Below, in pieces: positions 10,340 to 60,404 of a stretch of 64,000 nucleotides of DNA. Each line of letters begins with the position of its first letter. Position 1 is the stretch's first letter. The notes under the pieces were generated by a model. That model was not told where the DNA came from. It did no database searches and worked only from the letters and a program-made list of their open reading frames with translations. Where the stretch lies: contig CM041783.1 in the NCBI GenBank assembly GCA_023374045.1, forward strand, positions 90,121,298 to 90,185,297, written 5' to 3'. A program made the position numbers and the translations under genes. The DNA is from Limonium bicolor (taxonomy: Eukaryota; Streptophyta; Magnoliopsida; Caryophyllales; Plumbaginaceae).

Positions 10340-11589
10340 TGAAATACCCCCAAACCTGGTATGTTGTGTAAATGTTAAACTATGGTATTTATTAAAGGCT
10401 AAAAGTGCCTTAGAAACATAAATGAACCATTTAAACCATGGTAAAACACAATAAAACACAAGACCACGGTTTGAGCAAAAAATGCTCTAAGCTTGGACTG
10501 AACTTGGCTAGGACCCAAAGAGCCTACCAAGACTTGATAAGTTTAATTATGACTTTATAAGGCTAACTAAGTCCTTAGGAAACTTTGGTAGACAATGAAA
10601 CCAAACAAAACACAAATAAATACCTTAAGGTCAATATGGGCTAAAATGTGCTCTAAGCTTGGGATAAATGTGTATAAGACCTAATGGTCATACCTATGCC
10701 TTATTTTATATGTTAATGAACATATTAAATCAATTACCAAAGAAAACCAAGCTTGAAAACAAGTTAAAACACAAAAAGTGCTTTAAGGAGTCTTAAAGCA
10801 CGTTTTTGAAAAATTGTCTTGTAAATGAGTTTCGAATGGCTAAATGTCCATCATTACTCTTTAATAACATGGGTACTATAGTATCACATTTGGGTGGCTA
10901 TATCAATGGGAAATCAAAAATTTCACTTCTATGTGCCTACCTTAATAAGCTAGTTTGTAACATATAATGTTATAAGTAATTAAATTGGCAATAAAGTCAA
11001 AATACCCCTTGCTACATTTGGGGCCAGTTTTCTCATAAGGGAATGAGTCACCCCTTTGTTAAATTGATAAGATAGAAATTGATAAAGTAAAACACTATTT
11101 GCTTTACTTAAATATCTAAACTAACAAAAGCAAACTCATCTCCTCTTCACTTTTTTCCTTTCATTTCCACGGTGGCCTTTTCTTCCTCTCTCTCATCGGT
11201 TTCCAACAGGACCATATCATTCTTCATCCTTCTTCACTTGTAACTTATGACTACATGCTCCGAATTAAATTCCGAGACTATCGTTCTCTTAGTTGGAGCA
11301 AGCTCTACAACCTTGTCTTTTCAAATCATCAAAACCACCATTTCGGTGCCAAGGAGAATTTCCATGGAAGGAGCTTGAGCTAATATTTTTATGCCTTGTT
11401 GATCACCTTTGCTTCAAGGTAAGGAAAAACCAAAGAAAACTCCATTTCCTTCATTTTTGGTGTTGACCGAAAATGCACCTTGTAATGGTGTTTTCTCTTG
11501 TCTTGTTTTAGCTTCATTTAAATCTTCCAAGGGCTAGGAGGAGTCCTCTCTTGATACTCATTCAAGCTCTCTTTCCATTCAAAGGTAAA
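10340..11589 (+). repeat. B 5' LTR, first part
   Basis: Starts TGAAATACCCC and matches 34107-35383. Contains the conserved 10-bp hairpin at 10778-10801. Ends at the GTAAA duplication caused by A's insertion. Confidence 0.95.
11585..11589. repeat. Target-site duplication of A (GTAAA), left copy
   Basis: GTAAA ends at 11589, immediately before A's LTR; the second copy is 26048-26052. The single-copy empty site is 35379-35383 in B's 3' LTR. Confidence 0.96.
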
Positions 11590-11833
11590 TGAAATACCCC
11601 AAACTAAGATATAAGGAGGCTAAATAATGCCTTAGAAACATTAAGAAACATTTCTAATCAAAGAAAATATAAGGAAACACCAAAAGAGCAGTTTAAGCAA
11701 AAACGTGCTCTAAGCTTGGAGAGACTTGGGAGAGTACCCAAATATTGTTCTAAGACCTTAGTAATATCCTAATGGTCATTTTAAGTCAATTACCAAAGAA
11801 AACCAAGCTTGAAAACAAGTTAAAACACAAAAT

Positions 11834-11857
11834 GTGCTTTAAGGAGTCTTAAAGCAC
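11834..11857. other. Conserved perfect LTR hairpin
   Basis: Arms GTGCTTTAAG and CTTAAAGCAC with loop GAGT. The same structure is at 22228-22251 (A 3' LTR), 10778-10801 and 34545-34568 (B), 52974-52997 (E), 59542-59565 (F) and 555-578 (G). Loops vary; arms do not. Confidence 0.9.
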
Positions 11858-13885
11858 GTTTTTGAAAAATTGTCTTGTAAATGAGTTTTGAATGGCTAAA
11901 TGTCCATCATTACTCTTTAATTAATATGTGTACTATATAGTATCACATTTGGAGGTCTATATCAATGGGAAATCAAAAATTTCACAACAATGTGCCTTGT
12001 TTTTGATGAATAGTGAATTAATTAAGCTAGTTTATAACATAAGTCTATATAAGTGAGACATTTGGTCAACAAAGACTAAACTACCCTCATTCATTAAAGG
12101 GGGCCGTTTTTTTTAAGTGTGACTCACCACACTTATCTAGCTAAGTAAAGAGAAAGCAAAATAAGTAAGTTATAAGTAAAAACACTATTCACCTTTTAAG
12201 ATAAATATCACATTTACTTACCTCTCTCCTCACTTCTTCATTCTCCCTTGTTCACACGGTTTCTTGCTCTCTTTCTCTTCTCCATTCACGTAGAGCTCAC
12301 CTCCATGAAAGCTCCATCTTCCCTTGGCCACATCTTGCTCATTTTAGCTCCAAATCCAAAACAAAATACATATTCTTCTTAGTTAGCTCAAGCTCCTCCT
12401 TTCTATCTTTTCAAAACTTCAAGAGCTTCATTTTGGTGCCAAGTCAAACCACCATTAGAGGAGGAAATTCAAGTTTGGAGACTCCATTGGCATCTCCATT
12501 CTCTTAAGGTAAAGAAAGTGTAAGAAAATCTAGGTTTCCACCATTTTCTTCACATGACCGAAAATATATACTCATGGGACTCCATGTTTATGCCTTGTTC
12601 TAGCTTGTTTCTACTCTTCAAAGGAGAGAGGAGGTCCTTCTTGCTTCACCCAAGTTGTCTTGAGAAACCAAGGTAAAAAATCACATTAATACCTTAAAAC
12701 ATATTTTTAAACCTAGGGTTTGTTCCTTAGGGTTAATGTGTTATCTAGTACTCATTGGAGTCATTGGATATTGGTTAGAACATTGGCAAGGAGAATCACA
12801 TTGGTGACCGAGATTGAACAAAGAAAACCTAAGGAGAAAAGCTTTTAAGCTTGTGAAAAACAAGGTAAATTACTTACCTTAAGTGTGTTGTTGTTTAAGG
12901 GAATGAGATGTGGGTATATGATGAGTTTAGTGTAGAGTTTATATTGGGAAGGTGCTATAAAACCTAGGAGAAACAATGACTATCTTGTGAACTTGTGACT
13001 AAGGAGCAAATGAGAAAAGAGATAGTTTAAGAATATAAAGGTGAAGTACAAGAAGCATTTTATTTCAATGGGAGCCTTGTTGAGTGTATTCGCAGGTTGA
13101 AGGCATATATATGTGGAAATTCAGTGGTTAAGATTATTGTATTTAAGGGCCTAAGTGCCAAGCATTTTAAGTTTAAGCATTATATGATGATGTGGTGAAG
13201 TTTTAGTGTAAATTGGGTGTTAAGGTGTTGTGATGAGAATTTGTGTGGTATTGGTTGTTTGATGGAGAAAAACCATGTGTTAGGAAGTACTATATACTAG
13301 AGAACCCATGGCAAAATTTAAAGGAGAGTTTAAGTGTTTAAGATATCCTAAGGGAATTTAATGACTAAGGAAGTACTAGGAATGTTCTATGGGTTGTCTT
13401 GATGAAAAAGGGTGAAGTTAAGGTGTTTTAATGACTTATGATGACTTAGGTATCACCATGGAAGATTTAGGAATCAAGAGAATGTATTCGAGTGTTTAGG
13501 ACTTAGGCAAATGTTGATGCACAACTAGGAAGGAAATAATGTGATGATGATGGAAGTTTAGACTTGTTAAGGAACTTTAAGTAAATGTTTAAAAGAGTTT
13601 TAGATAGTGAGAGATGCTTGGGAGATGATGTTATAGTGGTGAAGAAAACATTTGGCATAGTGGTTACATTAGGTATGAACCACCACCTAGAAACCTAGAG
13701 GAAAGCATTACAAGTGTTAGCATTATTACAAGGAAAATGCATAATGACTAAGATGGATCTTCGTGGAAGATTTAAGGTATTTTAAGGAGGGCTTAAGGTG
13801 TATTTGAGGTGCCCAAATGAGGTTATAACATATTAGAATATATGAGGAAATTTGGAGTTGAAAGAGAATTTAGAAACAAGTTTCT

Positions 13886-14212
13886 AGAGCCGACCGGCCT
13901 TAGGACCGGACTTGCAGGTCGGTCGGGCTCTGTTACACTACCGGAAAATGTTCTGGAATCGACCGGACTTGGGGACCGGACTTACAAGTCCGGTCGGCTT
14001 GTGTTTTGTGAGGGAAAATGTTTCTGGAATGGACCGGACATGGGACCGGACTTGTCAAGTCCGGTCGGCATGAATTTTGTACGGTTATAAGTCTCTGGAA
14101 TCGACCGGACTAGGACCGGCTTGTAAGTCCGGTCGGAGTGAATTTTCCAACGGTAAAGGGTACTGGAATGGACCGGACTTGGCAAGTCCGGTCGGTAGTC
14201 CGGTCGAGCCTA
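13886..14212. repeat. GC-rich palindromic tandem array in A 5' LTR
   Basis: About five units of roughly 60-70 bp, each with GACCGGACTT followed by AAGTCCGGTC, so every unit is self-complementary. Between the palindromes is a conserved TCTGGAAT linker. Copies lie at 24248-24572 (A 3' LTR); diverged arrays with other arm sequences sit at the matching place in B, E and F. It is not a CRISPR array: this is plant LTR DNA and the spacers are near-identical. Confidence 0.9.
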
Positions 14213-14552
14213 AAAACAAAAAAAAAGAAATTTTAATTTCTAAGGAGTTAATTGGTATTAGGGTATGCCATTAGTAGGGTAGTAATGATTGGACCCTAAG
14301 AACTTAAGGAATTAAGTTAAGATTAAGTTAAGTTTTAATTTTTAAAGTTAAGATTGTAAGCTAAGTGATAAAGACTTGAGAGGTTTATTGAATGGAAGTC
14401 CTTAGGGATTAAGTGAGTTAAGTAAGGTGCAAGTAACTAATAACCTAAGAATGAATGAATGTTTTAGGTTTGTGAATTGGGACCCCGAAGAAGGTTAAAC
14501 AAACAACGATCGACGGTGAACGGTACAGTCCTTCTTGTGACCTGCTTGCTAA

Positions 14553-14566
14553 CGAGGTGTCCCTCG
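14553..14566. other. Short hairpin in conserved LTR segment (A)
   Basis: CGAGG and CCTCG flank TGTC. At the matching place B and E have CCGG...CCGG around ATTACA (27815-27828 in B), C the reverse complement of that, D GAGG/CCTC and F CGAGG-type arms. The stem position is kept while its sequence changes. Confidence 0.6.
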
Positions 14567-15299
14567 GCTTGTGTGCTATCTGTTTATTTGCTATGACTAC
14601 AAAGATAAAGCATGCAACCGGTTATATTGCTCTCGTTGTGATTGTGTTACTTACACTAACCCGCGAGAATTGAGATTGTTACTAACCAAGTTTAGTACTT
14701 ACTGAGTTAAGAATAAGAGTTAAGTTTGATGGTTGTTGGTTAATGCCCGTTAAGGCTTAGCTAGCACATGGTGTTTAAGATGTCTACTAACTGGAACTTG
14801 AGTGAGGAAACCCGGGACCGATCTCCGGTCATGCATGCTAAGGAAAAGGGGGACGGTATCTGATCAGATCCGCCCTCCGCTTAAGGACTTGTCTTCGGAC
14901 TTGTAGCCTAGGGCCGGTTGCCGGCTCAGCTACGCTGGACTCCCGTCCAGAGTAGGTGGCATTAAGATGGTGCGGTGGGATCACCTAAATCCCAGGTTCG
15001 ATTTAAGCTACAACCAATCCCTTCCAGGAAAGGTTTGTATACTGAGATTAAGATTAAGATTGAGATTAAGATTAAGGTAAGGTAAGGAACTGAGATTAAG
15101 GAAATGAGGACTAAGGAGGGGGTTACTAACCCACTTGTTAAGGGGACGCTTGAGTCGTTCATTGGTTGTGAACTATACATGTTCATCTGTGGTTATTGTT
15201 ATTGCACTTCATATTATGCTCGTGTATGTAATCAATTTCCATGCTATCGACAATTAGTCGTCGTAGCCCCGTTAGCTGGGGGCCATGAGAAGGGTGTAC

Positions 15300-15326
15300 C
15301 AGCATTCGTGCTGACCCCCTCGGGGG
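15300..15326 (+). other. Tandem small hairpins near A LTR 3' end
   Basis: CAGCA-TTCG-TGCTG (15300-15313) is followed at once by CCCCC-TC-GGGGG (15315-15326). B has CAGCA/TGCTG around ATGG and paired C/G runs near 29010-29043; D and F have equivalents. A pyrimidine-rich stretch and CAG|GTAAGA follow at 15344/15345. Confidence 0.65.
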
Positions 15327-15683
15327 CTATTTTTACACTTGCAGGTAAGAGGCCCATGAGGACGCACTACGAGAGTAGGAGCGGTTAGACTTAGGGGGAT
15401 GCTTATTTTGAGTTCGGGTTGCGCCTGTGCACCCGACTGTTTTATAAACTGATGTAAGTTGAGATTATTTTAAGATACTAGTACTCGGTTGGTTGTGGTA
15501 TTGTGAATGTTGATGTTTTTGAGTTGGATAAGTATTTTGGATAAACATTGTAAACGTTAAGCCGGTATATTCTAATGATCAGACCGTGGCAAGGTCCAGG
15601 TGTTGTATATTTCCGCTGCGACGTTTTCATTAAGTGTTCAGATTGCGATAACCACGATAGGCTTTGGATGGGTGTTACAAAAG

Positions 15684-15710
15684 TGGTATCAGAGCGTAGT
15701 TACGCTCTGA
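15684..15710 (+). promoter_or_regulatory. Primer-binding site of A inside a palindrome
   Basis: TGGTATCAGAGC (15684-15695) matches the 3' end of plant initiator tRNA-Met and starts five bases after the LTR. It overlaps a perfect palindrome at 15689-15710 with arms TCAGAGCGTA and TACGCTCTGA. Confidence 0.95.
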
Positions 15711-15910
15711 TCAGAAATACCGGACATGAGTAACCACCGAGTTAGGATATAAGTTGAGGAATAATGTTGGGTTAAGGGTGGAGAAGTTAGAGTGAGTAGA
15801 GTCAGATGACCACTAATAAGTGTGGATTGTCTTTACCGTCTACGGACGTTATAAACTTACTAACCAAAACAATGGTGAGTACGAATCTAATGTAAGTTAT
15901 GCTTGTTCAG
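15711..15910 (+). other. Leader between PBS and gag in A
   Basis: Non-coding by inspection. It shares short stretches (CGAGTTAGGAT, GGGTTAAGGG) with the PBS-proximal parts of B and D. An AATG|GTGAGT donor-like site lies near 15870. Confidence 0.6.
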
Positions 15911-16550
15911 ATGGCAGGACGCCCTAGAGGAGGCCGAGGTCGCGGCCGGGGTGAAGATATTCCAGGGATACCTGGAGGGCAGACGATCGCAGAGATCGTA
16001 GCTGCCGCTTTAGGGCACATGGGCTATCAGCCTGGTGTGGGTGCACCACCTCCACCGCCACAACCTAGGGAACCAAACTGGGTGAAGAGTCTATCAGACC
16101 TTCGACCCGCTCATTTAAGGGGGAGACCGATCCCGCCAAGCTTGAGGCGTACATCTCCGAGCTGGAGACCGCCTTCGAGACCCTTGATGTCCCTGCTGGG
16201 ATCAAGGTGCGCTTAGCTGCTTTCTACCTGAAGGGGCGGCGGGCGATTGGTGGAAGCTGGTGAGGGCCGAGCATGTGGCCAATCCAGAGTTCGGCTGGGA
16301 GCAGTACACCGCCTTGCTACGGGCAAAGTACTACCCCGCCCATGTCCAGACGAAGAAGCGCTTGCAGTTAGATGCGCTTAAGCAGTCGGACAAGATGACA
16401 GTGGACGAGTATTACTCAGAGTTCACTGCCTTGCTCCGTCTTCTGCCAGGTCTAGGGTATTCTGACCAGATCTTGGTGGACCGCTTCTATGGCGGGCTTA
16501 GCCATCGACTCCGCTACGGCATGGGGCCGACGAGTTACACTACCTTGCAG

Positions 16551-16630
16551 GTAATAAGAACGATTGAAATTTGAGTAGTGATGAATAAGATTTAGATTAT
16601 GAAATAAGTGAGAATACTATGGAAAAGCAG
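16551..16630 (+). other. Candidate gag intron 1 (80 nt)
   Basis: CAG|GTAATA at the left and AAAAGCAG| at the right. The segment is AT-rich against GC-rich flanks and contains in-frame stops. Removing it joins TTLQ directly to ECYHAAAKVE in the same frame, giving a smooth gag reading. Confidence 0.65.
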
Positions 16631-16878
16631 GAGTGCTATCATGCCGCTGCTAAGGTTGAGATTACCGTCCAGCTGAGGGACGAGGAGAATGCTAAGAGGA
16701 AGAGTGCTGGTAAAGCTCAGAGAGTCAAGGGCAAGGAGGGTACAAGAAACAAAAGTACCATCTCAGCCCAGAAGATCAGAACCCGAAAGGGAAGGAGGAA
16801 AAGGAGAAGGCTTCGGAAGAGCCATTGAAGCTGACCTATGCTATTGCAGCTACACCACTGCGCTCTAAGCGCCAAAGG

Positions 16879-16958
16879 GTGAGGAAAATTGATATTGAAT
16901 GAGTTAAGAAATAAATTAGTAACCGTTTGAGATATGAATTGACAATATGAATCATCAG
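16879..16958 (+). other. Candidate gag intron 2 (80 nt)
   Basis: CAAAGG|GTGAGG at the left and ATCATCAG| at the right; AT-rich with stops. Removal joins RSKRQR to DLRLRGAGGGYQ in frame, leading straight into the first zinc knuckle. Its length equals that of intron 1. Confidence 0.62.
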
Positions 16959-17294
16959 GATCTGAGACTGAGGGGAGCCGGTGGTGGCTACCAGCGACGC
17001 TTCATCTGTAGATGGTGTCACAAGGACCACCCCGGGCTCGACTGTAAGGGAATAAGGTGGAGTGCAACTTCTGTGGTGTCTACGGCATCGAGCTTATGAG
17101 TGTTACCGGAACCCTGCTAGCAGAGCCTATAGGCCCGACACCAGGGGCAAGGGCAAGACCGATCAGGGAGCTGGATCTGACGGTCAGAGGAAAGTGCAGC
17201 GCCGGCGGACAAGAACCCACGGGCGACCCAGAAGACGGGACCCACTCTACACATGTGGACCGGGACGATGAGCCTGAGCCCTCATCGAGGCCAG

Positions 17295-17427
17295 GTACCA
17301 CTATAACCATTTAGTAATAAAACTACCTGCTTACCGCATTATCATGCATGTTTGGTGAAATATATGAGTTAAGTAAGAATAAGAGGAGATTAGAACTTAA
17401 GTGAGATATAACCTACTACCACTCTAG
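17295..17427 (+). other. Candidate intron between gag and AlkB (133 nt), with alternative acceptor at 18311
   Basis: Donor GGCCAG|GTACCA; acceptor ACTACCACTCTAG| at 17427, after which the AlkB frame is open. A second acceptor, ACACAATTAG| at 18311, would instead remove 17295-18311 (1017 nt, AlkB included) and join codon phase 1 of the frame open at the donor to protease in the correct frame. Joining to AlkB in this copy is out of frame by one, which may reflect A's many indels. Confidence 0.5.
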
Positions 17428-18157
17428 GAAGATTCAACATTTGCTACCCAATACCATCCACATCTAACCCGGAGCACACCGACTCAAAACCATGGACTTT
17501 CCAACCGAACAATTCAGGTTATCCGCCCAGGTATGATTTTATTAAGGGGATACCTGACACCCGGAGCACAAATAGCCATCATCAGAAGATGCAATCAACT
17601 AGGAATGGGACCGGGAGGTTTTTACACACCGGAGTACCCAGGGGGAGCAAAGATGAAATTGAAGATGATGAGCTTGGGCAAGGATTGGAATCCGTATGCC
17701 AGAATTACCAAACCACAAGGAGCAAGATGGAGTCTCACCACCGGAATACCCGAAGAGTTCCATCCAGTCATTACACAAGTCATGGAAATCGCTCAGCAGT
17801 TGGAAGCTGAACCGATTCTAGACATCCAGCCAGACATTTGCATTGTAAACTTCTACGAAAAAGATGGGAAACTGGGACTACACCAGGATAAGGACGAGAC
17901 AACGGAGTCTCTCGAAAGAGGGATACCCGTAGTCTTGGTCCATTGGAGATGATGTGGAGTTTTTATACGGCGAGCAGAAGCGTGCGGACCGTGCAGATAA
18001 ATAGTACTTAAGTCAGGTTATGTATTAATTTTGGAGGAGAATCAAGGATGTTGTACCATGGGATTAAGAGAATCAAGCTGAATACAGCACCGTCAGCAGT
18101 AATCAATGCGACGCATATGAGACCAGAAGATTAAACCTAACCTTTAGACAATATTAG
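17428..18157 (+). pseudogene. AlkB-like 2-oxoglutarate/Fe(II) dioxygenase in element A
   Basis: AlkB-family enzymes oxidatively remove alkyl groups from nucleic-acid bases using Fe(II) and 2-oxoglutarate. Here the domain opens with IRPGMILLRGYL (from about 17521) and has GPGGFYTPEYPGGAKMKLKMM, typical of the plant ALKBH1-like branch. Next come DICIVNFY (17848-17856) and LGLHQDKDE, with iron ligands His 17881-17883 and Asp 17887-17889. The third ligand is the His of LYHG (about 18057). The distal SGDVLI...GGESR and NLTFRQ segments are present. A 2-base loss near 17932 and a 1-base loss near 18130 shift the frame, the latter at the RxxxxxR motif; stop TAG is 18155-18157. It lies between gag and protease, where chromoviruses normally have no extra domain. 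Identity as AlkB is firm; substrate is unknown. Confidence 0.93.
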
Positions 18158-18311
18158 CCATGTAATGTTAGAATGAGATGAGAAATGAGATGTAAGATTG
18201 AAGCACATGTTGTAAACAGGATGGTCATGAATAAATAACAGTGTTGTTCATATAAATTGTTACGACCCTTGTTATACCATCAATACTCATGAAGCTTGTG
18301 AACACAATTAG
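18158..18311 (+). other. AT-rich spacer between AlkB stop and protease
   Basis: About 154 nt without a conserved frame, matched in F at 63525-63681 (minus). It ends in a plausible acceptor, ACACAATTAG. In both elements the protease frame is closed by TGA a few codons upstream and has no nearby in-frame ATG, so protease needs splicing, frameshifting or readthrough to be made. Confidence 0.65.
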
Positions 18312-18799
18312 GTTATGGACTCGGTACGGAAGGTGCACTAAGCATACTCACAGAGGCACAGGCCGACGCAAGCGGTACTATCCTCACCGGCACCTTTCCG
18401 ATCAATGGGATTGAGGCATCAGTTCTCTTCGACTCAGGGGCCTCGCATACCTTTGTCTCGGCATCATTTGCGAGCAGGTTGGGGCTAGACGCTGATGAGC
18501 TACCCGACTTCACGGTTACGCTCCCGTCTAAGGAGAAGGTTCGTTGCACTCATTACTACCGAGGAGCCACCATCAGCATTAAAGGGGAAGACTTCCCAGT
18601 CAGTTTCATTGAGTTCAGTAAGCTAGGATTTGACGTTATCTTCGGGATGAACTGGTTGGAGCGGCACAAGGGACGTATCCTCTGCGCCGAGCATAGATTG
18701 CTGCTCAGGAGTCCGTCTGGGGTAACAATATCATACCGCCAGAGGCCCAGAGAGCCTTCGACTAAGATCATCACCGCCATGGCAATGCATAGAGATTAA
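18312..18799 (+). CDS. pol: Aspartic protease of element A (pol fragment)
   Basis: The protease cleaves the Gag-Pol polyprotein inside the particle. The frame is open from the acceptor at 18312 to TAA at 18797-18799 and lacks its own ATG. It contains [13 protein letters not shown], the DSG catalytic triad starting at 18431, then [16 protein letters not shown], the usual second conserved block of gypsy proteases. F has the same frame (63524 downward, minus). A one-base loss near 18790 moves the RT linker ([17 protein letters not shown]) into another frame. Confidence 0.85.
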
Positions 18800-19709
18800 G
18801 GAGAAAGGAAGAAGTATACCTCTGCTATGTACAGGACATAGAGAGAGACCCTGAGTTCGACCCCGACTTACCGGTAGTGTCGGAGTTCCCCGACTTATTT
18901 CCACGGGAACTGCCCGGCATGCCACCCACTCGGGAGGTAGAGTTCACCATTGAGCTGCTACCTGGTACCGGACCGATAGCCAAAGCACCATACCGTATGG
19001 CTCCGGCAGAATGACTGAGTTAAAAGAACAACTGAAAAGATTTTTGTCATAATTATTCATTAGCCAGTTGCCACCATTGGGAGCGCCATTCCCTTCGTGA
19101 AGAAAGGTATGGTAGTCTCCGCCTCTGCATCGACTACAGAGAGCTAAATGCAGTGACAGTGAAGAATAAGTACCCACTACCACCCCGCATTGATGATCTG
19201 TTCGATCATTGAAGGAGCATCTGTGTTTCCAAGATTGATCTCAGATCGGGGTATCATCCCCATTAAGGAGGGGGACATTGAGAAAGCGGCATTCCGGACA
19301 CGATACGGCCACTATGAGTTTACAGTGATGCCGTTCGGTTTGTCGAACGCACCGGCGAAGTTTATGGATCTGATGAACCGCTTGTTCCGGGAGCAGCTGG
19401 ACAAGTCGGTCGTGGTTTTTATTGATGAAATTCTGATATATTCAAAGTCTAAGGTTGAGCATGAGGCATTTGAGGAGGGTGTTAGAAATATTGAGGGAGA
19501 ACCAGCTATATGCTAGTTCTCCAAGTGTGAGTTTGGCTTGACCAGGTCTCTTTCCTAGGTCATGTCATCTCAGATGCTGGGATCGCAGTGGATCCAGCAA
19601 AGATTGATGCCGTACGTACCTGGCCAAGGCCGAAGACTGTTACCGACATCCGGAGCTTTCTCGGTCTGGCAGGTTCTACAGGAGGTTTGTCAGAGATTTC
19701 AGCAAGGTC
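18800..19709 (+). pseudogene. pol: Reverse transcriptase of element A, broken
   Basis: RT copies genomic RNA into cDNA. Readable blocks in order are [18 protein letters not shown] (about 18950-19010), [20 protein letters not shown] (about 19115-19180), [10 protein letters not shown] (about 19229-19257), [20 protein letters not shown] (about 19306-19360) and [13 protein letters not shown] (about 19411-19450). The stretch 19010-19110 is scrambled relative to F. The catalytic aspartate pair reads FIDE here instead of FIDD as in F (codon GAA at 19427-19429). Frameshifts and stops make this RT non-functional as written. Confidence 0.85.
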
Positions 19710-20711
19710 GTGAAGCCGATGACCAGTCTGATGAAGAAGGATGCACCATTTCTATGGACAGATGACTGTGAGAGATCATTTCAGCGCTTGAAGGACTCAT
19801 TGACCACTGCACCAGTACTGACCATTCCAGACGGTACAGAGGGCTTTGAGGTTTATTGTGATGCATCCGGCAGAGGGCTGGGTTGCGTGCTCATGCAACA
19901 TGGCAAGGTGGTGGCATATGCCTCACGCCAGTTGAAGAAACATGAGGAGAACTACCCCACACATGATTTAGAGCTGGGAGCTGTAGTCTTTGCTTTGAAG
20001 ATATGGCGCCACTACTTATACGGGGTTAGTGTCACGATCTACACCGATCATAAAAGTTTGAAATACATATTCACTCAGAAGGAGTTAAATCTTCGACAAA
20101 GGAGATGGTTAGAATTTCTGAAAGACTATGACATTGACCTCCAATACAAAGAAGGGAAGGCCAATGTTGTAGCAGATGCCCTGAGCCGTCGAGCACACTC
20201 ACTCCATTCGCTAGTTTCTTTCTCCAGCTTGGTTGATGAGGTGCGAGAGGCTCAGAGGACAGATGAGTATATGAGAGAGGTCAGACAGAAGCTGATAGAT
20301 GGTACCTTTGAGAGTCAGAAATACGACTTCAGACTTCATGATGATGACCTGATCAGACTTAAGGGCCGATTATGCATACCGCGAGGTAATACGGACCTGA
20401 AGGACCGTATACTTAGAGAATCGCACTGTTCTTCAGTTTCCATCCATCCGGGAGCCTCTAAAATGTATAAAGACATGAAGAGATACTTCTGGTGGTCGGG
20501 GATGAAGACAGATGTTACCGAGTTTGTCTTGAGGTGTCTCACATGCCAGAAGGTGAAATACGAGCACAGACGACCGGGCGGAATGGTACAGTCGATGCCA
20601 GTTCCGGAGTGGAAGTTCCATGATATCTCCATGGACTTCGTAGTTGGGCTTCCACCTGCTAGGGGAGGTCTCAACATGATATGGGTGGTGTGGATCGCCT
20701 TACCAAAGTAG
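19710..20711 (+). CDS. pol: RT C-end, RNase H and integrase N-terminal part of element A
   Basis: A 333-codon open stretch. It begins in the RT thumb ([13 protein letters not shown]), then RNase H with [31 protein letters not shown] and VVADALSRR carrying the acidic catalytic residues. The integrase zinc-binding HHCC region follows ([12 protein letters not shown] ... CLTCQKVK, about 20415-20556), then the first catalytic Asp in SMDFVVGLP (about 20626-20652). A one-base loss near 20688 ends the frame. The start is not a true initiation site; this is the middle of pol. It is the best preserved part of A. Confidence 0.9.
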
Positions 20712-21470
20712 CCCGATTCATACCGGAAGGATACTTGGAAGGTAACCAAATTAGCTGAGTTATTTGAGAAAGAAATCATGAGACATCACGGCATACCAAA
20801 GACCATAGTGTCAGATAGAGATACCAGATTCCTTTCGAGGTACTGGAGAGCTACCAGAGAAGCGTTGGGTACAGAACTCAAACTGAGTACCGCGTTCCAT
20901 CCCCAGACAGATGGTCAGACTGAGCGTACTATTCAGACACTCGAGGACATGCTGAGAGCATGTGCCTTAGACTTCCAGGGCAGTTGGATTGACAGATTGC
21001 ATCTGATCGAGTTTTCATACAACAACAGCTATCACGCTTCGATCAAGATGGCACCTTTTCAAGCGTTGTACGGTAGACCATGTCGTACACCGCTCTGCTG
21101 GGATGAGTCGAGTGAGACGGTCATTATAGGACCAGAGTACTTAGAACAAGTTAAGGCTGAAGTTCAACAAATCAGGGAGAACATGAAAGCTGCTCAAGAT
21201 AGGCAGAAGTCGTATGCTGATGTTCGACGACGGGACCTGGAGTTCGCAGTGGGCGACCAGGTATTTCTGCGAGTATCACCGATGAAGGGTGTATTCAGGT
21301 TTGGGCAGAAGGGCAAGTTAAGCCCGAAATTTGTTGGTCCTTATGAGATTACGGAGCGGGTGGGCCCGGTTGCTTACAGGTTGAATTTACCTGCTGAGCT
21401 GGGTAAAGTGCATGATGTTTTTCATGTTTCACAGCTAAAAAATACATGCACCACCCCTCCCATGTGTTAG
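20712..21470 (+). pseudogene. pol: Integrase core, C-terminal part and GPY/F module of element A
   Basis: Integrase inserts the cDNA. After the break near 20700 the open stretch 20778-21470 gives [14 protein letters not shown] (second catalytic Asp) and FHPQTDGQTERTIQTLEDM (catalytic Glu). LIEFSYNNSYHASIKMAPF and ALYGRPCRTPLCW, typical of Tekay/Del-like integrases, come next. [19 protein letters not shown] is the GPY/F module. The frame closes at 21470 by a small shift just before the chromodomain. Confidence 0.9.
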
Positions 21471-21670
21471 AACCTGAGAGGTTGACTTTAGAACCAAACA
21501 TGAGATCCGTGGAGACTCCTCAGAGAATCTTGGACAGTAAGACTAGGGACACTCGCCACAAGTCAGTGCGACTGGTGAAGGTTCTCTGGTCTAACCAGGA
21601 TGTCGAAGAGGCCACGTGGGAATTAGAGGATAAGATGAGGGCGAAGTACCCTTCTTTATTTACTGACTAG
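21446..21670 (+). CDS. pol: Integrase C-terminal chromodomain of element A
   Basis: Chromodomains at the integrase end steer chromoviruses to chromatin with particular histone marks. The frame reads HHPSHVLEPERL, then QRILDSKTRDTRHKSV, RLVKVLWSNQDVEEATWE and LEDKMRAKYPSLF, matching the fold's three strands and closing helix with the KVLW and TWE signatures. Stop TAG is at 21668-21670. It is out of frame with the preceding integrase by one indel. F has a near-identical copy at 60147-60404. Confidence 0.88.
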   Translation: MHHPSHVLEPERLTLEPNMRSVETPQRILDSKTRDTRHKSVRLVKVLWSNQDVEEATWELEDKMRAKYPSLFTD

Positions 21671-21682
21671 ATCGTCTGTATA

Positions 21683-21716
21683 GGGTACGGGGCATACCCC
21701 TTTTTAAGGGGGGTAG
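21683..21716 (+). promoter_or_regulatory. Interior polypurine tract of A with upstream hairpin
   Basis: Hairpin arms GGGTA/TACCC (21683-21699) precede TTTTTAAGGGGGGTAGAG. It begins 13 bases after the pol stop and about 267 bases before the LTR-proximal tract. Confidence 0.75.
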
Positions 21717-21946
21717 AGCTTCCTCGCTTTTGAGTTAGGAAACGATCATGTTTGTCGTTTGCTCGGTTGTTTAAGATGTGAATTTGTGTAAGTTGCTACA
21801 CTTCGGTGTAAGTTTGAGTTTTGAGTTATGTATGATACTTATGTATTGTATTTGAGATTGACCTTTGAGTCTTGAGATGTATGAATGTGAATATAAGATG
21901 TGGTATTAAGATTAAGAGTGTACCGTGAATGGTTAAGCACATGTGT
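21717..21946 (+). other. 3' untranslated stretch of A
   Basis: About 230 bases between the two polypurine tracts with no conserved frame; F has the equivalent at about 59873-60099 (minus). Confidence 0.6.
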
Positions 21947-21983
21947 GAACTTTGAGGACAAAGTTCTTTTAAGGGGGGTAGAT
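21947..21983 (+). promoter_or_regulatory. Polypurine tract of A with upstream hairpin
   Basis: Plus-strand priming site. Hairpin arms GAACTTTG and CAAAGTTC around AGGA (21947-21966) abut TTTTAAGGGGGGTAGAT, which ends at the 3' LTR. Confidence 0.92.
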
Positions 21984-24900
21984 TGAAATACCCCAAACTA
22001 AGATATAAGGAGGCTAAATAATGCCTTAGAAACATTAAGAAACATTTCTAATCAAAGAAAATATAAGGAAACACCAAAAGAGCAGTTTAAGCAAAAACGT
22101 GCTCTAAGCTTGGAGAGACTTGGGAGAGTACCCAAATATTGTTCTAAGACCTTAGTAATATCCTAATGGTCATTTTAAGTCAATTACCAAAGAAAACCAA
22201 GCTTGAAAACTAGTTAAAACACAAAATGTGCTTTAAGGAGTCTTAAAGCACGTTTTTGAAAATTGTCTTGTAAATGAGTTTTGAATGGCTAAATGTCCAT
22301 CATTACTCTTTAATTAATATGTGTACTATATAGTATCACATTTGGAGGTCTATATCAATGGGAAATCAAAAATTTCACAACAATGTGCCTTGTTTTTGAT
22401 GAATAGTGAATTAATTAAGCTAGTTTATAACATAAGTCTATATAAGTGAGACATTTGGTCAACAAAGACAAAACTACCCTCATTCATTAAAGGGGGCCGG
22501 TTTTTAAAGTGTGACTCACCACACTTATCTAGCTAAGTAAAGAGAAAGCAAAAATAAGTAAGTTATAAAGTAAAAACACTATTCACCTTTTAAGATAAAT
22601 ATCACATTACTTACCTCTCTCCTCACTTCTTCATTCTCCCTTATTCACACGGTTTCTTGCTCTCTTTCTCTTCTCCATTCACGTAGAGCTCACCTCCATG
22701 AAAGCTCCATCTTCCCTTGGCCACCTCTTGCTCATTTAAGCTCCAAATCCAAAACAAAATACATATTCTTCTTAGTTAGCTCAAGCTCCTCCTTTCTATC
22801 TTTTCAAAACTTCAAGAGCTTCATTTTGGTGCCAAGTCAAACCACCATTAGAGGAGGAAATTCAAGTTTGGAGACTCCATTGGCATCTCCATTCTCTTAA
22901 GGTAAAGAAAGTGTAAGAAAATCTAGGTTTCCACCATTTTCTTCACATGTCCGAAAATATATACTCATGGGACCCCATGTTTATGCCTTGTTCTAGCTTG
23001 TTTCTACTCTTCAAAGGAGAGAGGAGGTCCTTCTTGCTTCAAACCCAAGTTTGTCTTGAGAAACCAAGGTAAAATAACCACATTAATACCTTAAAGCATA
23101 TTTTTAACCTAGGGTTTGTTCCTTAGGGTTAATGTGTTATCTAGTACTCATTGGAGTCATTGGATATTGGTTAGAACATTGGCAAGGAGAATCACATTGG
23201 TGACCGAGATTGAACAAAGAAACCTAAGGAGAAAAGCTTTTAGCTTGTGAGAAAACAAGGTAATTACTTACCTTAAGTGTTTTTTGTTTTAAGGGCATGA
23301 TGTTTATATGATGAGTTTAGTGTAGAGTTTATATTGGAAGGTGCTATAAAACCTAGGAAACATGACTATACTTGTGAACTTGTGACTAAGGAGCAAATGA
23401 GAAAAGAGATAGTTTAAGAATATAAAGGTGAAGTACAAGAAGCATTTTATTCAATGGAGCCTTGTTTGAGTGTATTCGCAGGTTGAAGGCAAATCTATGT
23501 GGAAATTCAGTGGTTAAGATTATTGTCATTTAAGGGCCTAAGTGCCAAGCATTTTAAGTTTAAGCATTATATGATGATGTGGTGAAGTTTTTAGTGTAAA
23601 TTGGGTAAGGTGTTGTGAGAGAATTGTGTGGTATTGTTGTTTGATTGAGAAAAACCATGTGTTTAGGAAGTACTATATACTAGAGAACCCATGGTAAATT
23701 TAAAGAGAGTTTAAGTGTTTAGATATCCTAAGGGAATTTAATGACTAAGGAAGTACTAGGAATGTTCTATGGGTTTTCTTGATGAAAAAGGGTGAAGTTA
23801 AGGTGTTTTAATTACTTATGATGACTTAGGTATCACCATGAAGATTTTAATCAAGAATGTATTTGAGTGTTTAGGACTTAGCAATGTTGATGCACAACTA
23901 GGAAGGAAATAATTGATGATGATGAAGTTTAGACTTGTTAAGGAACTTTAAGTAAATGTTTAAAAGAGTTTTAGATAGTGAGAGCTTGGGAGATTATTTT
24001 ATAGTGGTGAAGAAAACATTTGGCATAGTGGTTACACTAGGTATGAACCACCACCTAGAAACCTAGAGGAAAGCATTACAAGTGTTAGCATTATTACAAG
24101 GAAAATGCATAATGACTAAGATGGATCTTGGTGGATGATTTAAGGTGTTTAAGGAGGCTTAAGGTGTATTTAGGTGCCCAATGAGGTTATAACATATTAG
24201 AATATATGAGGAGAAGTTTGGAGTTGAAAGAAATTTAGAAACAAGTTTCTAGACCGACCGGCCTTAGACCGGACTTGCAGGTCGGTCGGGCTCTGTTACA
24301 CTACCGAAAATGTTTCTGGAATCGACCGGACTTGGGGACCGGACTTACAAGTCCGTCGGGCTTGTGTTTTGTGAGGGAAATGTTTCTGGAATGGACCGGA
24401 CATGGGACCGGACTTGTCAAGTCCGGTCGGCATGAATTTTGTACGGTTATAAGTCTCTGGAATCGACCGGACATAGGACCGACTTGTAAGTCCGGTCGGA
24501 GTGAATTTTCCAACGTAAAGGGTACTGGAATGGACCGGACTTGGCAAGTCCGTCGGTAAGTCCGTCGAGCCTAAAAACAAAAAAAGAAATTTTAATTTCT
24601 AAGGGAGTTAATTGGTATTAGGGTATGCCATTAGTAGGGTAGTAATGATTAGGACCCTAAGAACTTAAGGAATTAAGTTAAGATTAAGTATAAGTTTTAA
24701 TGTTTAAAGTTAAGATTGTAAGCTAAGTGATAAAGACTTGAGAGGTTATTGAATGGAAGTCCTTAGGGATTAAGTGAGTTAAGTAAGGTGCAAGTAACTA
24801 ATAACCTAAGAATGAATGAATGTTTTAGGTTTGTGAATTGGGACCCCGAAGAAGGTTAAACAAACAACGATCGACGGTGAACGGTACAGTCCTTCTTGTG

Positions 24901-26047
24901 ACCTGCTTGCTAACGAGGTGTCCCTCGGCTTGTGTGCTATCTGTTTATTTGCTATGACTAAAACAAGATAAAGCATGCAACCGGTTATATTGCTCTCGTT
25001 GTGATTGTGTTATACTTACACTAACCCGCGAGACTTGAGATTGTTACAAACTAAGTTTAGTACTTACTGAGTTAAGAATAAGAGTTAAGTTTGATGGTTG
25101 TTGGTTAATGCCCGTTAAGGCTTAGCTAGCACATGGTGTTTAAGATGTCTACTAACTGGAACTTGAGTGAGGAAACCCGGGACCGATCTCCGGTCATGCA
25201 TGCTAAGGAAAAGGGGGACGGTATCTGAATCAGATCCGCCCTCCGCTTAAGGACTTGTCTTCGGACTTGTAGCCTAGGGCCGGTTGCTGGCTCAGCTACG
25301 CTGGACTCCCGTCCAGAGTAGGTGGCATTAAGATGGTGCGTGGGATCACCTAAATCCCAGGTTCGATTTAAGCTACAACCAATCCCTTCCAGGAAAGGTT
25401 TGTATACTGAGATTAAGATTAAGATTGAGATTAAGTAAGGTAAGTAAGGAACTGAGATTAAGGAAATGAGGACTAAGGAGGGGGTTACTAACCCCTTGTT
25501 AAGGGGACGCTTGAGTCGTTCATTGGTTGTGAACTATACATGTTCATCTGTGGTTATTGTTATTGCACTTCATATTATGCTCGTGTATGTAATCAATTTC
25601 CATGCTATCGACAATTAGTCATCGTAGCCCCGATAGGTGGGGGCCATGAGAGGGTGTACCAGCATTCGTGCTGACCCCCTCGGGGGCTATTTTTACACTT
25701 GCAGGTAAGAGGCCCATGAGGACGCACTACGAGAGTAGGAGCGGTTAGACTTAGGGTGGGATGCTTATTTTGAGTTCGGGTTGCGCCTGTGCACCCGACT
25801 GTTTATATTAAACTGATGTAAGTTGAGATTATGTTTAAGATACTAGTACTCGGTTGGTTGTGGTATTGTGAATGTTGATGTTTTTGAGTTGGATAAGTAT
25901 TTTGGATAAACATTGTAAACGTTAAGGCCGGTATATTCTAATGATCAGACCGTGGCAAGGTCCAGGTGTTGTATATTTCCGCTGCGACGTTTTCAATTAA
26001 GTGTTCAGATTGCGATAACCACGATAGGCTTTGGATGGGGTGTTACA
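21984..26047 (+). repeat. A 3' LTR (4.06 kb)
   Basis: Matches 11590-15679; ends GTGTTACA at 26047 followed by the GTAAA duplication. It carries the hairpin at 22228-22251 and the GC array at 24248-24572. Relative to the 5' LTR it shows many single-base losses, such as CCGGTC to CCGTC within the array. Confidence 0.97.
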
Positions 26048-26052
26048 GTAAA

Positions 26053-29435: not shown

Positions 29436-29462
29436 TGGTATCAGAGCGAAGTATCGCTCTGA
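29436..29462 (+). promoter_or_regulatory. Primer-binding site of B inside a palindrome
   Basis: TGGTATCAGAGC at 29436-29447, five bases after the LTR. Arms TCAGAGCGA and TCGCTCTGA (29441-29462) enclose AGTA. The inner arm bases differ from A and D but still pair. Confidence 0.94.
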
Positions 29463-32400
29463 TGACTAAATTACCGAGCTTAGGAAGTACCGAGTTAGGA
29501 TTTTAGTACTTTAGGTTAAGGGTTGAGTGATAGCGTGAGAGATACGCTAGTAAGGAACTACCAGTGAATACTGGAAACCTACTATATCTAACCCGCCCTC
29601 CACAACCCCTGTTTTATAACTTGGGAAACAACGCCAGAGAGATGAAAGTCCTCTCATACTCAGGAATACCCGATCTGGCTGTTATTAAATACCTTTATGG
29701 TACGGAGAACCTGTCATACGGTAGATCCCGAAAATTGGGAATCCCGGAGACGGTCTCCATCTGAACAATGTTAACCGCATTTAATAGCGAAGAATGAAGA
29801 ATCTTGCGTATAGAAGAATAGAATTTCCGGCAACCTGGGTCGACGTGCTGCAGTCGTCGAGAATAACCAACTTGCAATGCACCAACCGTGCAACAGGCAA
29901 GAAATGGATCAATAAAACCCGAGATGAGTATCTATGGGACCACAGTTGGTAAGTAATACACCAACGGTGTACCAACCAACTAAGGAACTATAACGTAGTG
30001 CCCAAACAAGAGACAGGTCTCAGTAACCACGACGATGCGTGGAACGGGCTACAAAGAGAAAATAATGCTAAGTAAAAAGGGGACTCCAAGAATGGGAGAC
30101 ACCCCAGTTGATAACTATTATGTAAATACAGTGAGAAGTTACCCAAAGGATATTGTCAAGGCAGTAAGATCAGTAAGGGCCAACAAGGCCACTGATGACA
30201 GTGCGGATAAAGACAATACCACAACCGGTATGTGTTAAACCGATAGCCAGTTAGCATGGCGCACTTGCCATAGCAAGTGCTGCTATAACAGGGCTATTCG
30301 GGAAATTTATAACCACTACAAAGTACTTGGAAAAGTACAATAAAGTTAAATATGATTGTCATAACAGTGGAAGGGCCTGTTAGCCTAACCTCTGTAATTG
30401 GAAGTACACCAGTCAGCAAGAAGCTAGACTTGGCTAAGGTAAGAAGATGTTGTGAAACCATGAAAATTTTCTTTCAAACCCAAATTTATTCAAACCCTTT
30501 CTTTTCAAAACCAGATTTTCTTTCAAACCAACACTTCTTTCCAACCTTCTTTTAAACCAAACCAGTGAAACCAGGGGCAGTTGACAAGGATACAACAGTG
30601 GATAAACTTTCCCTCGATTAAGTTCGGGAAGCAAGGAATGAATATTGTCACGGGACAATATAAGGGAGTTGACAACAGAATACTTCACCTAGGCGTGTGA
30701 CGGACACTACAAGTGTACCAACTGTGTTGTGGGACGACCGCACTCCGATAGGAGCATGTGGGCCTGACAGACCTACTTATAGGTTAGTTGGGTAAGTAGT
30801 AATGTATCAGTATGATACCCCATATGTGTATACGAGTAGAGTCCAGAACACGGGAAGTAGTCGACTCCGTTCTACGGTCAGCAGTGTAAGTCAAACAAGA
30901 GCTAAGGATTACCATGAATGGTTGAAGTAAAGGAACCCAGCTAAATTAAAGAGACTGAAGGAATCAGTGAATGTGTGCAAGGAAATATTTAAGATACAGG
31001 AGGTGCGAAGTGCACCGACTGTTATATAAAGACATTGGAGAAGGCGTAGTTTACTGAAAGTACCCATAAGTGCAAGCCAAATGTAATGGCATATTTTGAT
31101 AACACCCAGGAGCAATCCTTGAGGGGTAATTGAAACGCAAGAGTTGAAACAAATACTCGGAAGGAATCGCGACGGCAAGGCTTATAAGCCACAACAACCT
31201 GTATTATGTAATGTGATCGGTTGCAGAAGTATATGTTACACAAGGAAATAGAGCGGAGAACGAACCACTGCTTTAAGAGTGGGGATACCTCTCGATATTG
31301 TGAAACCGCGAGAGCGGTAGTTGTGTGGACCAAGTTCAAGAAATAGGTGGAGGATGGACCACGTTGTTATTACCCCAGGATGATTTGAATAAAATATTAC
31401 GAAAAGAAATACTCGTACCAGTTGTGTACACAGGAAGAGTAATAAGCCTGATAGCAATCACCATAGGTGTGTGAAGCTAAAAGTGTAGCGAACAACGCTC
31501 AAGAAAACATAAAGACTCAAAAAAAAATATAAAAATATAGTATATTCAAAAGTCAGCCAAATAAGTGGCCAGATAAACCCAGTGTAATAGCGGAAGCTAA
31601 TATAATAGCGGATGCAGTATAAGTTGATGTTATATAATGAGTAAGGATATGGTGCGCAATAAGCGACCGTTGTGTGAGTATTGTTAAATGATAAAATGGG
31701 AGTGAGCAGAGTTATGAGTTAAACCCAGTGGAGGCACAACAGTAAGCGATAGCAAACGAACCGAGCAGTAAGCCGGTGACAAGTATTATGTGATAAGAAT
31801 TTTAGTAAAACACAGTGTAATTTCCTATCGCAATCGCATCAGAGATTTACTGTCAAGAGTTTACGCCTCTGCACTCTGTATGACTGAGTGTTTTGGTATT
31901 GCACTTGCGCAGTAATGATCAAGTGGGATAGCTAGGGATCAGAAGCATGATAATTATGGAGGAATAATGTTATAATGGCCGATGCATAGGAAATGCAAGG
32001 CCGCACCAATAAAAGAGTACTTGTACAAAACCAAATGTGGAGACATGATTAACAGTAAGTGACTACGGTAGCACTAACTGCCAAATATCGGTATGGAATA
32101 TACCCCAAATGTTGTAAATAGCTGAGAGAGCACTACACACTAGGTAGTAGCTCAATCTCAACCGACAGTAAGTCGGTAGAAGCAAGTCAATCATTGTGAA
32201 TTACATAGTAGTTTACGCTGTAAGCTATTGGAGAAGTGGATGGAAAGTTTTTAAACTCACCGAATTCGCTCAGGGTAAGAGATACCATGCGTCGGTTGAG
32301 AAACCATCCTTCCCAAGATAAGGGTAATACATTGGAGATGTACAATACAGTAACAGTAACGAATGGGGCAAACTAGCCCTATAATTATCAGAATGGCGCA

Positions 32401-32660
32401 GCAGAGACCAGTGAGCCCATGCATCAAATGCCGAATATACATTGTGAATATGAACGGATGGCTAGTCATCAATGCCTAGAAGCCTTACAGGCCAGGACCG
32501 AAACCGGTTATGAGTTACAACTCCAATGCGAATTCTTGGTTTAGGAACTAAACCGCTAATATGGTTAAGATCCTCTAATCAGAATCCATTGTGTAATAGA
32601 CCGCGTGAAAGTTAAAACACTTCACGACGGCAGAACATTTTAAGCTAATGCTCAGTGATT

Positions 32661-32696
32661 GATTACGAGGGCGTAATCCCTTTTAAGGGGGGTAGA
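32661..32696 (+). promoter_or_regulatory. Interior polypurine tract of B with upstream hairpin
   Basis: Arms GATTACG and CGTAATC around AGGG (32661-32678), then CTTTTAAGGGGGGTAGAG. It lies about 1.4 kb upstream of the LTR-proximal tract. Confidence 0.78.
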
Positions 32697-33784
32697 GCGC
32701 AAAACCACTTAGTGTGTTTTACCGTACAAGTGTACGTGAACGGGGTTGTGCATAGCACAAAATGATTTGTTATGATGGTTGGCGCATGTGTTATATAAAC
32801 ATACACATTTATTTGTGGTTAAATTGTGGTAATTGCGCACAGAAGATGCGAATACCATTGTGGGAAGTGTGTTTATCTTGTTAACAGTGGTGTGTGAGAG
32901 TACAAATGGAAGGGAGTAAAGAAACTCCCGGGGAACTAAAACCCCGACGGTGCATAAATGTAAACCATGTATTGTATTTTGATAAAAATATGTATATATA
33001 TATAGTGTTGTGATTTATGAGGGGTATAAGACCGACATAGAACCTAGTGAGAATTAAATTTCCTAGGTAACTTGAATTAAGTTGGATTTGGGTGATGATT
33101 GATAGACAGAGTTCTATCCCTTGGAGATGTAATGATTATGACTAGAAGGATTTAAAGATAGAAAATGGGATACGCTTGAATTAGTTGTTGGTTGGAAAAG
33201 AAGTGGGAGGTGAAACTTGATTATCATGAGATCAAGGGAAGCCGAACACAAATTGGGGTGGAAAGATAGTTCAACACTGATGCTGATCACATCAGGGTTG
33301 GATGACTCTTGAAGCTCCCTGTAAGTGGTCACAAACAACCACGTTAAGAAAGATGCAAAGAGCATAAACTGGACTTGGAGTTGTGTTGTGTTTTCATAAA
33401 GGATTTTCAATGAGTATTTCCAAAACAGACGAGTAATATTTTGAATAAAGGATTCTCTTATATACTTAACCTAGTAAAGAATATTTTTGTAGTACTTGCT
33501 CACGAGCTGAGGACGTATGAGCCTTTGTCTTCGGACCGTTGACATGAGAAGTATATATGTTAAAAAAATTAAGTGAATGTTTTGACCTCCCAAAGGAACG
33601 GGGACCAGAAGGTGTCCATCGCGACCGGGTTCTGCGGGATCACAGTGTATATGTACTCAACGTGGGATTCGAACCCATGGAGAGATGGAAAAGGTATTTC
33701 TGTTTGATATACATGCTATGACATGTTGTTTGGTATGTGTGATAAAGGTTATTTTGACTTTGATCTCCTAAAGTGTATGCTATC

Positions 33785-33990
33785 AAGACCTATGAGTCTA
33801 AATGTGTTGTGTTACCCGGGCCTACGAGTCCAAATGTGGTTATGTCACCCAGACCTAAGAGTCTGAGGGATATTATGTTAGTGCAAGTGTGGTGAAGGTA
33901 CCCGGACCATTAAGTCCGAGGTTACCATGTGAGTATGATATTTTATGTGTAATGTGGATATGTTGCCCGGACCATTAAGTCCGAGGTTGG
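33785..33990 (+). repeat. Five tandem GRCC/GGYC mini-hairpins near B's 3' end
   Basis: Units read AGACC..GAGTCT, GGCC..GAGTCC, AGACC..GAGTCT, GGACC..AAGTCC and GGACC..AAGTCC with similar spacers. Paired positions change together between AGAC/GTCT and GGAC/GTCC. D has a related unit near 897-915 on the minus strand. Confidence 0.7.
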
Positions 33991-34069
33991 ATGTAAAGGG
34001 TGGTTGGTAATGGAAGTTTTATGGCTATAAGTAATTCCCGTATTCTAATCCAATGATGCGAGGAAATGT

Positions 34070-34106
34070 GAACTTCGAGGACGAAGTTCTTTTAAGGGGG
34101 GTAGAT
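34070..34106 (+). promoter_or_regulatory. Polypurine tract of B with upstream hairpin
   Basis: Arms GAACTTCG and CGAAGTTC around AGGA (34070-34089), then TTTTAAGGGGGGTAGAT against the 3' LTR. Compared with A, one T-A pair has become C-G on both sides of the stem. Confidence 0.93.
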
Positions 34107-38766: not shown

Positions 38767-38771
38767 GCAAG

Positions 38772-59835: not shown

Positions 59836-59872
59836 TTTTACCCCCCTTAAAAGAACTTTGTCCCCAAAGTTC
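59836..59872 (-). promoter_or_regulatory. Polypurine tract of F with upstream hairpin
   Basis: Minus strand: arms GAACTTTG and CAAAGTTC (59853-59872) around GGGA, then TTTTAAGGGGGGTAAAA against the LTR. Confidence 0.9.
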
Positions 59873-60099
59873 ACACGTGTACTAAGTCATTCATGGTACT
59901 CAATTTCTTAATCTTGATACCACATCTTATATTCTCAATCACACATCTCAAGACTCAAAGGTCAATCACAAATACAATACATAAGTATTATACATATCCC
60001 ATACTTATCGCCAAAGTGTAGCAACTTACACAAAATCACATCTTACACAACCAAACAAACGACAAACACGTTCGTTTCCTAACTCAAAAGCAAGGAAGC

Positions 60100-60133
60100 T
60101 CTACCCCCCTTAAAAAGAGGTACACCCCATACC
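60100..60133 (-). promoter_or_regulatory. Interior polypurine tract of F with upstream hairpin
   Basis: Minus strand: a weaker GGTA/TACC stem (60119-60133) followed by TTTTTAAGGGGGGTAGAG, 13 bases after the chromodomain stop. Confidence 0.65.
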
Positions 60134-60146
60134 CTATACAGACGAT

Positions 60147-60404
60147 CTAGTCAGTAAACAACGAAGGGTACTTCGATCTCATCTTGTCCTCTAATTCCCA
60201 CATGGCCTCTTCGACATTCTGGTTAGACCAGAGAACCTTCACCAGTCGCACTGACTTATGGCGAGTGTCCTTAGTCTTACTATCCAAGATTCTCTGAGGA
60301 ACCTCCACTGATCTCATATTCGGTTCTAATGTCAACCTCTCAGGTTCTAACACATGGGAGGGGTGGTGATGTATTTCTTTAGCTGTGAAATTGAAAAACA
60401 TCAT
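60147..60404 (-). CDS. pol: Integrase C-terminal chromodomain of element F
   Basis: HHPSHVLEPERL, QRILDSKTKDTRHKSV, RLVKVLWSNQNVEEAMWE and LEDKMRSKYPSLF: a chromodomain nearly identical to A's (21446-21670). One visible change is EEAMWE for EEATWE. It is out of frame with the GPY/F module because of a small insertion near 60410, so it is detached from integrase as written. Confidence 0.88.
   Translation of the reverse strand: MMFFNFTAKEIHHHPSHVLEPERLTLEPNMRSVEVPQRILDSKTKDTRHKSVRLVKVLWSNQNVEEAMWELEDKMRSKYPSLFTD

Follow-up and report, generated by a model that had tools for sequence, protein, structure and literature searches.

A 64,000-nucleotide stretch of the Limonium bicolor genome (assembly GCA_023374045.1, contig CM041783.1, positions 90,121,298 to 90,185,297; hereafter, the window, numbered from its first letter) contains a long terminal repeat (LTR) retrotransposon with an AlkB dioxygenase domain between gag and protease (PR), which raises the question of what such an enzyme does in a chromovirus and how it would be expressed. 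The AlkB-bearing element occupies positions 11590–26047 in the order gag-AlkB-PR-reverse transcriptase (RT)-RNase H (RH)-integrase (INT)-chromodomain, and it shows two marks of a chromovirus, a chromodomain scoring above cut-off and the order gag-PR-RT-RH-INT. A first-pass annotation, made from the letters alone, had proposed this placement and named a profile search, a search for gag-AlkB-PR neighbours and a tree as checks; the placement is borne out by matches to PF13532 in the AlkB segment (E 3.4e-17), to PF03732 upstream, and to PF08284 and PF00385 downstream. Our preferred answer, whose chances of being right or wrong we consider evenly balanced, is that a captured ALKBH1-type exon is spliced to gag and that the resulting Gag-AlkB fusion brings a demethylase into the particle, where it would erase methyl marks.

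The profile match lies in frame +1 of positions 17428–17952 (63.8 bits, cut-off 31.2), a piece that also matches the rice structure 5xeg with E 8.6e-37. Beyond this piece the domain runs on in other frames up to RLNLTFRQY, followed by the stop TAG at 18155–18157, and the AlkB copy of the window is thus frameshifted; the AlkB domain described at first pass is confirmed, with a broken frame in this copy. The AlkB exon (17428–18157, forward strand, as are all features below unless stated otherwise) begins with the base directly after a splice-acceptor-like AG and ends with the last base of the stop codon. By sequence and fold, the nearest solved structure for both the window piece and a relative, P0001, is rice OsALKBH1 (5XEG, 5XOI), and a structure-database match of the window AlkB lists 21 sequences at E ≤ 1, none of them an ALKBH5. 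The element enzyme is accordingly classed, by sequence, as a predicted ALKBH1-type 2-oxoglutarate/Fe(II) dioxygenase with putative demethylase activity.

A search of the L. bicolor genome (2.92 Gb, 2686 contigs) with PF13532 yielded 38,326 loose first-look candidates, of which the 150 best-scoring were evaluated; all 150 scored matches exceed the cut-off, and 149 are listed as free of internal stops. Among 47 distinct loci, all drawn from these 150 (L001 was excluded as the same place as L009), the expected neighbours were found with PR downstream of AlkB in every case and gag upstream in 45 (all except L007 and L039). The three genes lie on one strand in 20 of 20 loci taken along the ranking (every eighth, plus rank 149), and the chromodomain is reached by tblastn in 19 of these, L022 stopping within RT. 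Two diverged subfamilies are present in addition to the window lineage, and the AlkB-bearing chromovirus family is very abundant. Chance or artefact as the source of the AlkB match is ruled out by the profile scores together with the scale of the family, and a single-copy capture by the many gag-AlkB-PR loci. As a side observation, one region (G000:C1:497439466-497470353) holds four AlkB matches on the same strand about 10.1 kb apart, the pattern expected of a tandem array of LTR plus internal units.

The AlkB frame is open in 40 of 48 copies (the 47 loci and the window copy); because the loci come from the 150 best AlkB scores, both this fraction and the low divergence within the family are biased towards intactness. 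The ratio of nonsynonymous to synonymous substitution rates (dN/dS) of the AlkB exon is about 0.1 between subfamilies, with dS saturated, and that of the protease is alike; pairs with unmeasurable dS were omitted, leaving 31 of 72 protease pairs between subfamilies and 1 of 3 AlkB pairs between subfamily A and the window copy. Thus, the AlkB exon is under purifying selection, as is the protease. LTR elements can acquire host genes, and the broken AlkB frame of the window copy would suit a captured host fragment that merely rides, without a role, on an active element. Such a passenger is disfavored, and we consider it highly improbable, in view of the low dN/dS (saturated dS notwithstanding) and of the metal- and cofactor-binding residues (HxD...H and RxxxxxR), which are intact in 48 of 48 copies, albeit in loci chosen by AlkB score.

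A tree of 61 hand-picked rows places the element-type AlkB proteins in a clade of their own, on the bacterial side of the root and with long branches; in a quicker tree, grouping the element rows alone needs two changes, P0001 and P0002 falling among them. Plant ALKBH1, represented by OsALKBH1, is the closest enzyme by sequence and fold, yet it is the product of a host gene, whereas the proteins of the separate clade are encoded by a retroelement. Identity to plant host ALKBH1 proteins is about 50%; for viral relatives, one IMG/VR scan gave three weak loci at a lower identity, 33–37%. Among the 120 listed of 2842 matches, the public proteins with at least 60% identity were P0001, P0118, P0002, P0004 and P0184 (ENA or Logan records). 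No gag or RVT Pfam label was found on public AlkB proteins (0 of 67 matches, 417 candidates). A separate set of multi-copy AlkB proteins (P0005–P0028, about 205–255 aa), with many members from Paspalum notatum, falls together with the ALKBH1 proteins of grasses; it may represent a further capture by a mobile element.

How the enzyme would be expressed is indicated by the structure of the gag region. BLAST alignments of the window copy with other copies start and stop at common positions, which coincide with GT/AG boundaries. These divide gag into a decayed exon 1 with the capsid part (15912–16550; PF03732 on piece 16260–16574, donor GT at 16551, the ATG start being our reading), intron 1 (16551–16630, GT/AG, aligned with the 47 loci), exon 2 (16631–16878, from sequence reading and copy alignment), intron 2 (16879–16958, GT/AG) and exon 3 (16959–17294), whose zinc knuckles were identified by eye and gave no Pfam match on the decayed piece 16938–17096. 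Intron 3 (17295–17427; donor GT at 17295, acceptor AG at 17426–17427) leads to the AlkB exon, which is followed by an AT-rich spacer (18158–18311) ending with the protease acceptor AG (18310–18311) and by the protease exon that starts pol (18312–18796, PF08284). Splice dinucleotides are kept in most of the 48 copies (D1 46, A1 48, D2 46, D3 47, A3 48, A4 47). Group means of GC content are 0.28–0.37 for introns and 0.41–0.61 for exons, and divergence from the window copy (28 copies) is 0.45–0.52 for introns and 0.27–0.42 for exons.

At L003, the gag-end donor leaves one base, which either acceptor, that of AlkB or that of PR, takes up in frame; the second subfamily shows the same donor and acceptor phases. 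The protease acceptor is an AG in 47 of 48 copies. Two acceptors of equal phase, one of an AlkB exon with its own stop and one of the protease, face a single gag-end donor, and since AlkB brings its own stop, PR would be reached in the proposed model by skipping AlkB. Expression of AlkB in frame with the protease is ruled out, as the stop ends AlkB in the window copy, in the aligned subfamilies and in a second copy at the window end (57209–64000, reverse strand, cut by the window end inside AlkB), which has the AlkB 3' part and the identical stop. If intron 3 is retained, the reading frame closes 3 codons on in 39 of 40 main-subfamily copies, 5–15 codons on in the 7 second-subfamily copies and 6 codons on in the window copy. 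Exon 3, checked in 28 copies, is open in the expected phase in 14 and lacks an open frame in 12; in the other two (L009 and L013) another frame is open, yet the domain-bearing end reads in phase.

Removal of introns at these sites is recorded in the genome itself, in copies lacking precisely intron 1 (L025) or precisely intron 2 (L010). The exon 1-exon 2 join has 539 genome matches (24 bases, ≤ 2 mismatches), the Gag-AlkB join has 12 (28 bases), and the unspliced gag end of one subfamily has 6,677 (25 bases, ≤ 2 mismatches), with no match to any of the reversed controls. The Gag-AlkB join was read in 3 of its 12 loci and is exact and in frame in all three: L052 has intron 3 removed and intron 2 retained, in L053 introns 2 and 3 are absent but intron 1 survives, at least at its end, and L054 has none of the three introns, so that intron 3 is cleanly gone in each. 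Since most of the one-mismatch exon 1-exon 2 matches listed have one variant letter in common, the 539 joins probably descend from fewer splice events, many of them presumably tracing back to amplified copies from which the intron was already gone. Some pairs of intron-1-less copies lie about 10 kb apart, and such copies therefore seem to multiply. As read from genomic fossils, the evidence is that the predicted splicing does happen and that element RNAs are apparently reverse-transcribed in several splice states; the fossil Gag-AlkB joins are likewise evidence for a predicted Gag-AlkB mRNA.

The small number of Gag-AlkB joins also suits an alternative: AlkB, translated from its own start, would be a free enzyme that works in trans on RNA of the element or of the host, and its joining to gag would be a minor by-product. 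The catalytic part opens with a methionine (MILLRGYL in the window), where P0001 starts, and in an orchid element the AlkB enzyme is encoded by a separate open reading frame (ORF), ORF2, for which independent translation into a free protein is proposed (PMC9289625). Against this stand the preservation of the exon part 5' of the methionine (FNICYPIP...) in the sampled subfamilies, P0003 and P0118, and the in-frame gag join in all three loci read. We consider a free enzyme unlikely.

The fusion model, in contrast, would run as follows. A chromovirus lineage would have captured an ALKBH1-type dioxygenase and turned it into a terminal exon that follows gag and precedes pol, with Gag encoded by three exons. 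Left unspliced, the phase-1 donor at the Gag end would give Gag alone, with a stop within a few codons; joined to the AlkB acceptor, it would give a Gag-AlkB fusion with its own stop; and joined to the protease acceptor, Gag-Pol. Fused behind the zinc knuckles of Gag, the enzyme would be carried into the virus-like particle, to sit beside genomic RNA and single-stranded complementary DNA (cDNA) and remove N6-methyladenosine (m6A) and/or N6-methyladenine (6mA) marks that hinder the element. The anatomy, the family scale, the selection on the AlkB exon, the conserved splice sites and the exact absence of introns 1, 2 and 3 were obtained directly; from them we infer that the protease acceptor is used and the fusion packaged, and likewise the substrate and the benefit. 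The fullest version, in which alternative splicing gives Gag, Gag-AlkB and Gag-Pol from one donor and sets the Gag:Gag-Pol ratio, each particle packages its own eraser of m6A/6mA for genomic RNA and nascent cDNA, and self-erasure has been invented a second time, independently, among plant retrotransposons, appears to us tenable but somewhat more likely wrong than right.

Several points weigh against the proposed fusion and its role. The acceptor of intron 2 (A2) shows AG in the aligned column in no more than 39 of 48 copies, AGs occurring at shifted positions in other lineages; the copies without intron 1 mark that intron as dispensable; Gag-AlkB joins are few beside the 6,677 unspliced gag ends that the nearest pattern matches; intactness is biased by the choice of loci; and splicing and fusion are read here from genomic sequence. 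Moreover, the evidence fits mark erasure and damage repair alike, the latter meaning the same anatomy with an enzyme that repairs alkylation damage (1-methyladenine, 3-methylcytosine) on element RNA or cDNA and leaves regulatory marks in place. The first-pass idea of erasure or repair is compatible with the enzyme class. That class suggests, from sequence, methyl removal from adenine, whether in RNA or in single-stranded DNA, and m6A on the RNA of the plant LTR element ONSEN is reported to restrain its mobility (as summarized in PMC12786077). For these two reasons self-erasure is our leading reading, with damage repair as its main rival, improbable in our estimate though slightly less so than a free enzyme.

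The first-pass statement that no Ty3/gypsy family with an AlkB domain had been described does not stand, as the Phalaenopsis family Gypsy_Pa_2799 encodes an AlkB (paALKBH5-like, a 2-oxoglutarate-dependent dioxygenase) with m6A demethylase activity in vitro (PMC9289625). The orchid element is Tat/Ogre-related, with a dual RNase H, a tRNA-Arg primer-binding site, a length of 25.5 kb and gag-pol in one ORF, and its AlkB, of the ALKBH5 class, is the terminal part of an ORF of 565 aa that is separate from gag-pol (PMC9289625). Both families are multi-copy Ty3/gypsy elements with long LTRs and an AlkB with all cofactor residues. The Limonium element differs in its chromodomain, single RNase H (one stretch in piece 19710–20711 and none from there to the integrase zinc domain), 14.5 kb length, ALKBH1 class, gag introns and the stop-ended AlkB exon between gag and PR, which does not match the orchid layout. 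Given these differences (chromovirus vs. Tat/Ogre, ALKBH1 vs. ALKBH5, spliced exon vs. separate ORF), the Limonium family is most likely an independent, second AlkB acquisition, the orchid protein being compared by its published description.

For splicing, precedents are BARE, where spliced Gag RNA balances the products (PMC3735527), and Ogre, with one intron upstream of RT (PMC6317226). Like the Limonium element, these plant LTR elements use splicing to obtain different products from one transcript, and the intron removal at conserved sites typical of them is seen here as genomic fossils; unlike it, they have no enzyme exon, whereas in the Limonium element the gag region contains three introns and a captured enzyme is encoded by an alternative exon. 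A genetic parasite bearing an AlkB domain is also found among plant RNA viruses (Alpha- and Betaflexiviridae, Closteroviridae; cited in PMC9289625). In the literature covered, which did not extend to bioRxiv or most subscription journals, the sole AlkB-bearing LTR element among the titles and abstract openings listed is the orchid family (PMC9289625, repeated in PMC12786077), and none of the titles listed for introns and splicing mentions a multi-intron chromovirus gag. New with respect to these earlier descriptions are the gag introns and the one donor facing two same-phase acceptors (AlkB and protease).

If the proposed reading is true, two unrelated LTR lineages, this one and that of the orchid, have convergently captured AlkB enzymes that belong to different classes, and the comparison would be evidence that methylation of retroelement RNA or DNA plays a part in host control. 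The Gag-AlkB exon suggests the particle as the enzyme's site of action, the family demonstrates that several introns are possible in a plant chromovirus gag, and its high copy number makes it well suited to work on RNA and particles.

The remaining anatomy of the window copy agrees with an LTR element bounded by target duplications, as first described. The 5' LTR (11590–15679, 4090 bp) and 3' LTR (21984–26047, 4064 bp), both from the LTR pair alignment, are flanked by the 5-bp duplication GTAAA (left 11585–11589, right 26048–26052), and the unoccupied insertion site survives near 35379–35383 in the sister LTR of an outer, invaded element. The primer-binding site TGGTATCAGAGC (15684–15695), just 3' of the 5' LTR, is a candidate site of the tRNA-Met type. 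Pieces of reverse transcriptase, RNase H and integrase with broken frames (19036–21467) are followed by the chromodomain piece (21416–21667; PF00385 26.5 bits, cut-off 25.1) and a polypurine tract (21971–21978). The window copy is dead, unless its frame breaks are assembly errors. Divergence between the LTRs is 0.022 (Kimura two-parameter; 35 transitions and 54 transversions over 4035 sites, 84 gap columns); this 2.2% difference, set against the many gene frame breaks in 11590–26047, would fit either a trans-mobilized dead copy or assembly indel errors. Tandem arrays of about 70-bp units lie within the LTRs (13910–14182 and 24273–24544).

The AlkB element is inserted in the left LTR of the outer long-LTR element (10340–38775, right LTR 34107–38775). 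In tblastn, the gag-pol pieces have no match in the inner part of the latter (29440–34106), and the outer LTR partly resembles that of the AlkB element (about 89% over 330 bp), and for these reasons the outer element may be a non-autonomous partner of the AlkB element. Further LTR-like repeat pairs (6766–10341/45443–49034, 97.6%; 38831–40948/49117–51249, 93.7%) mark the window as a nest of insertions.
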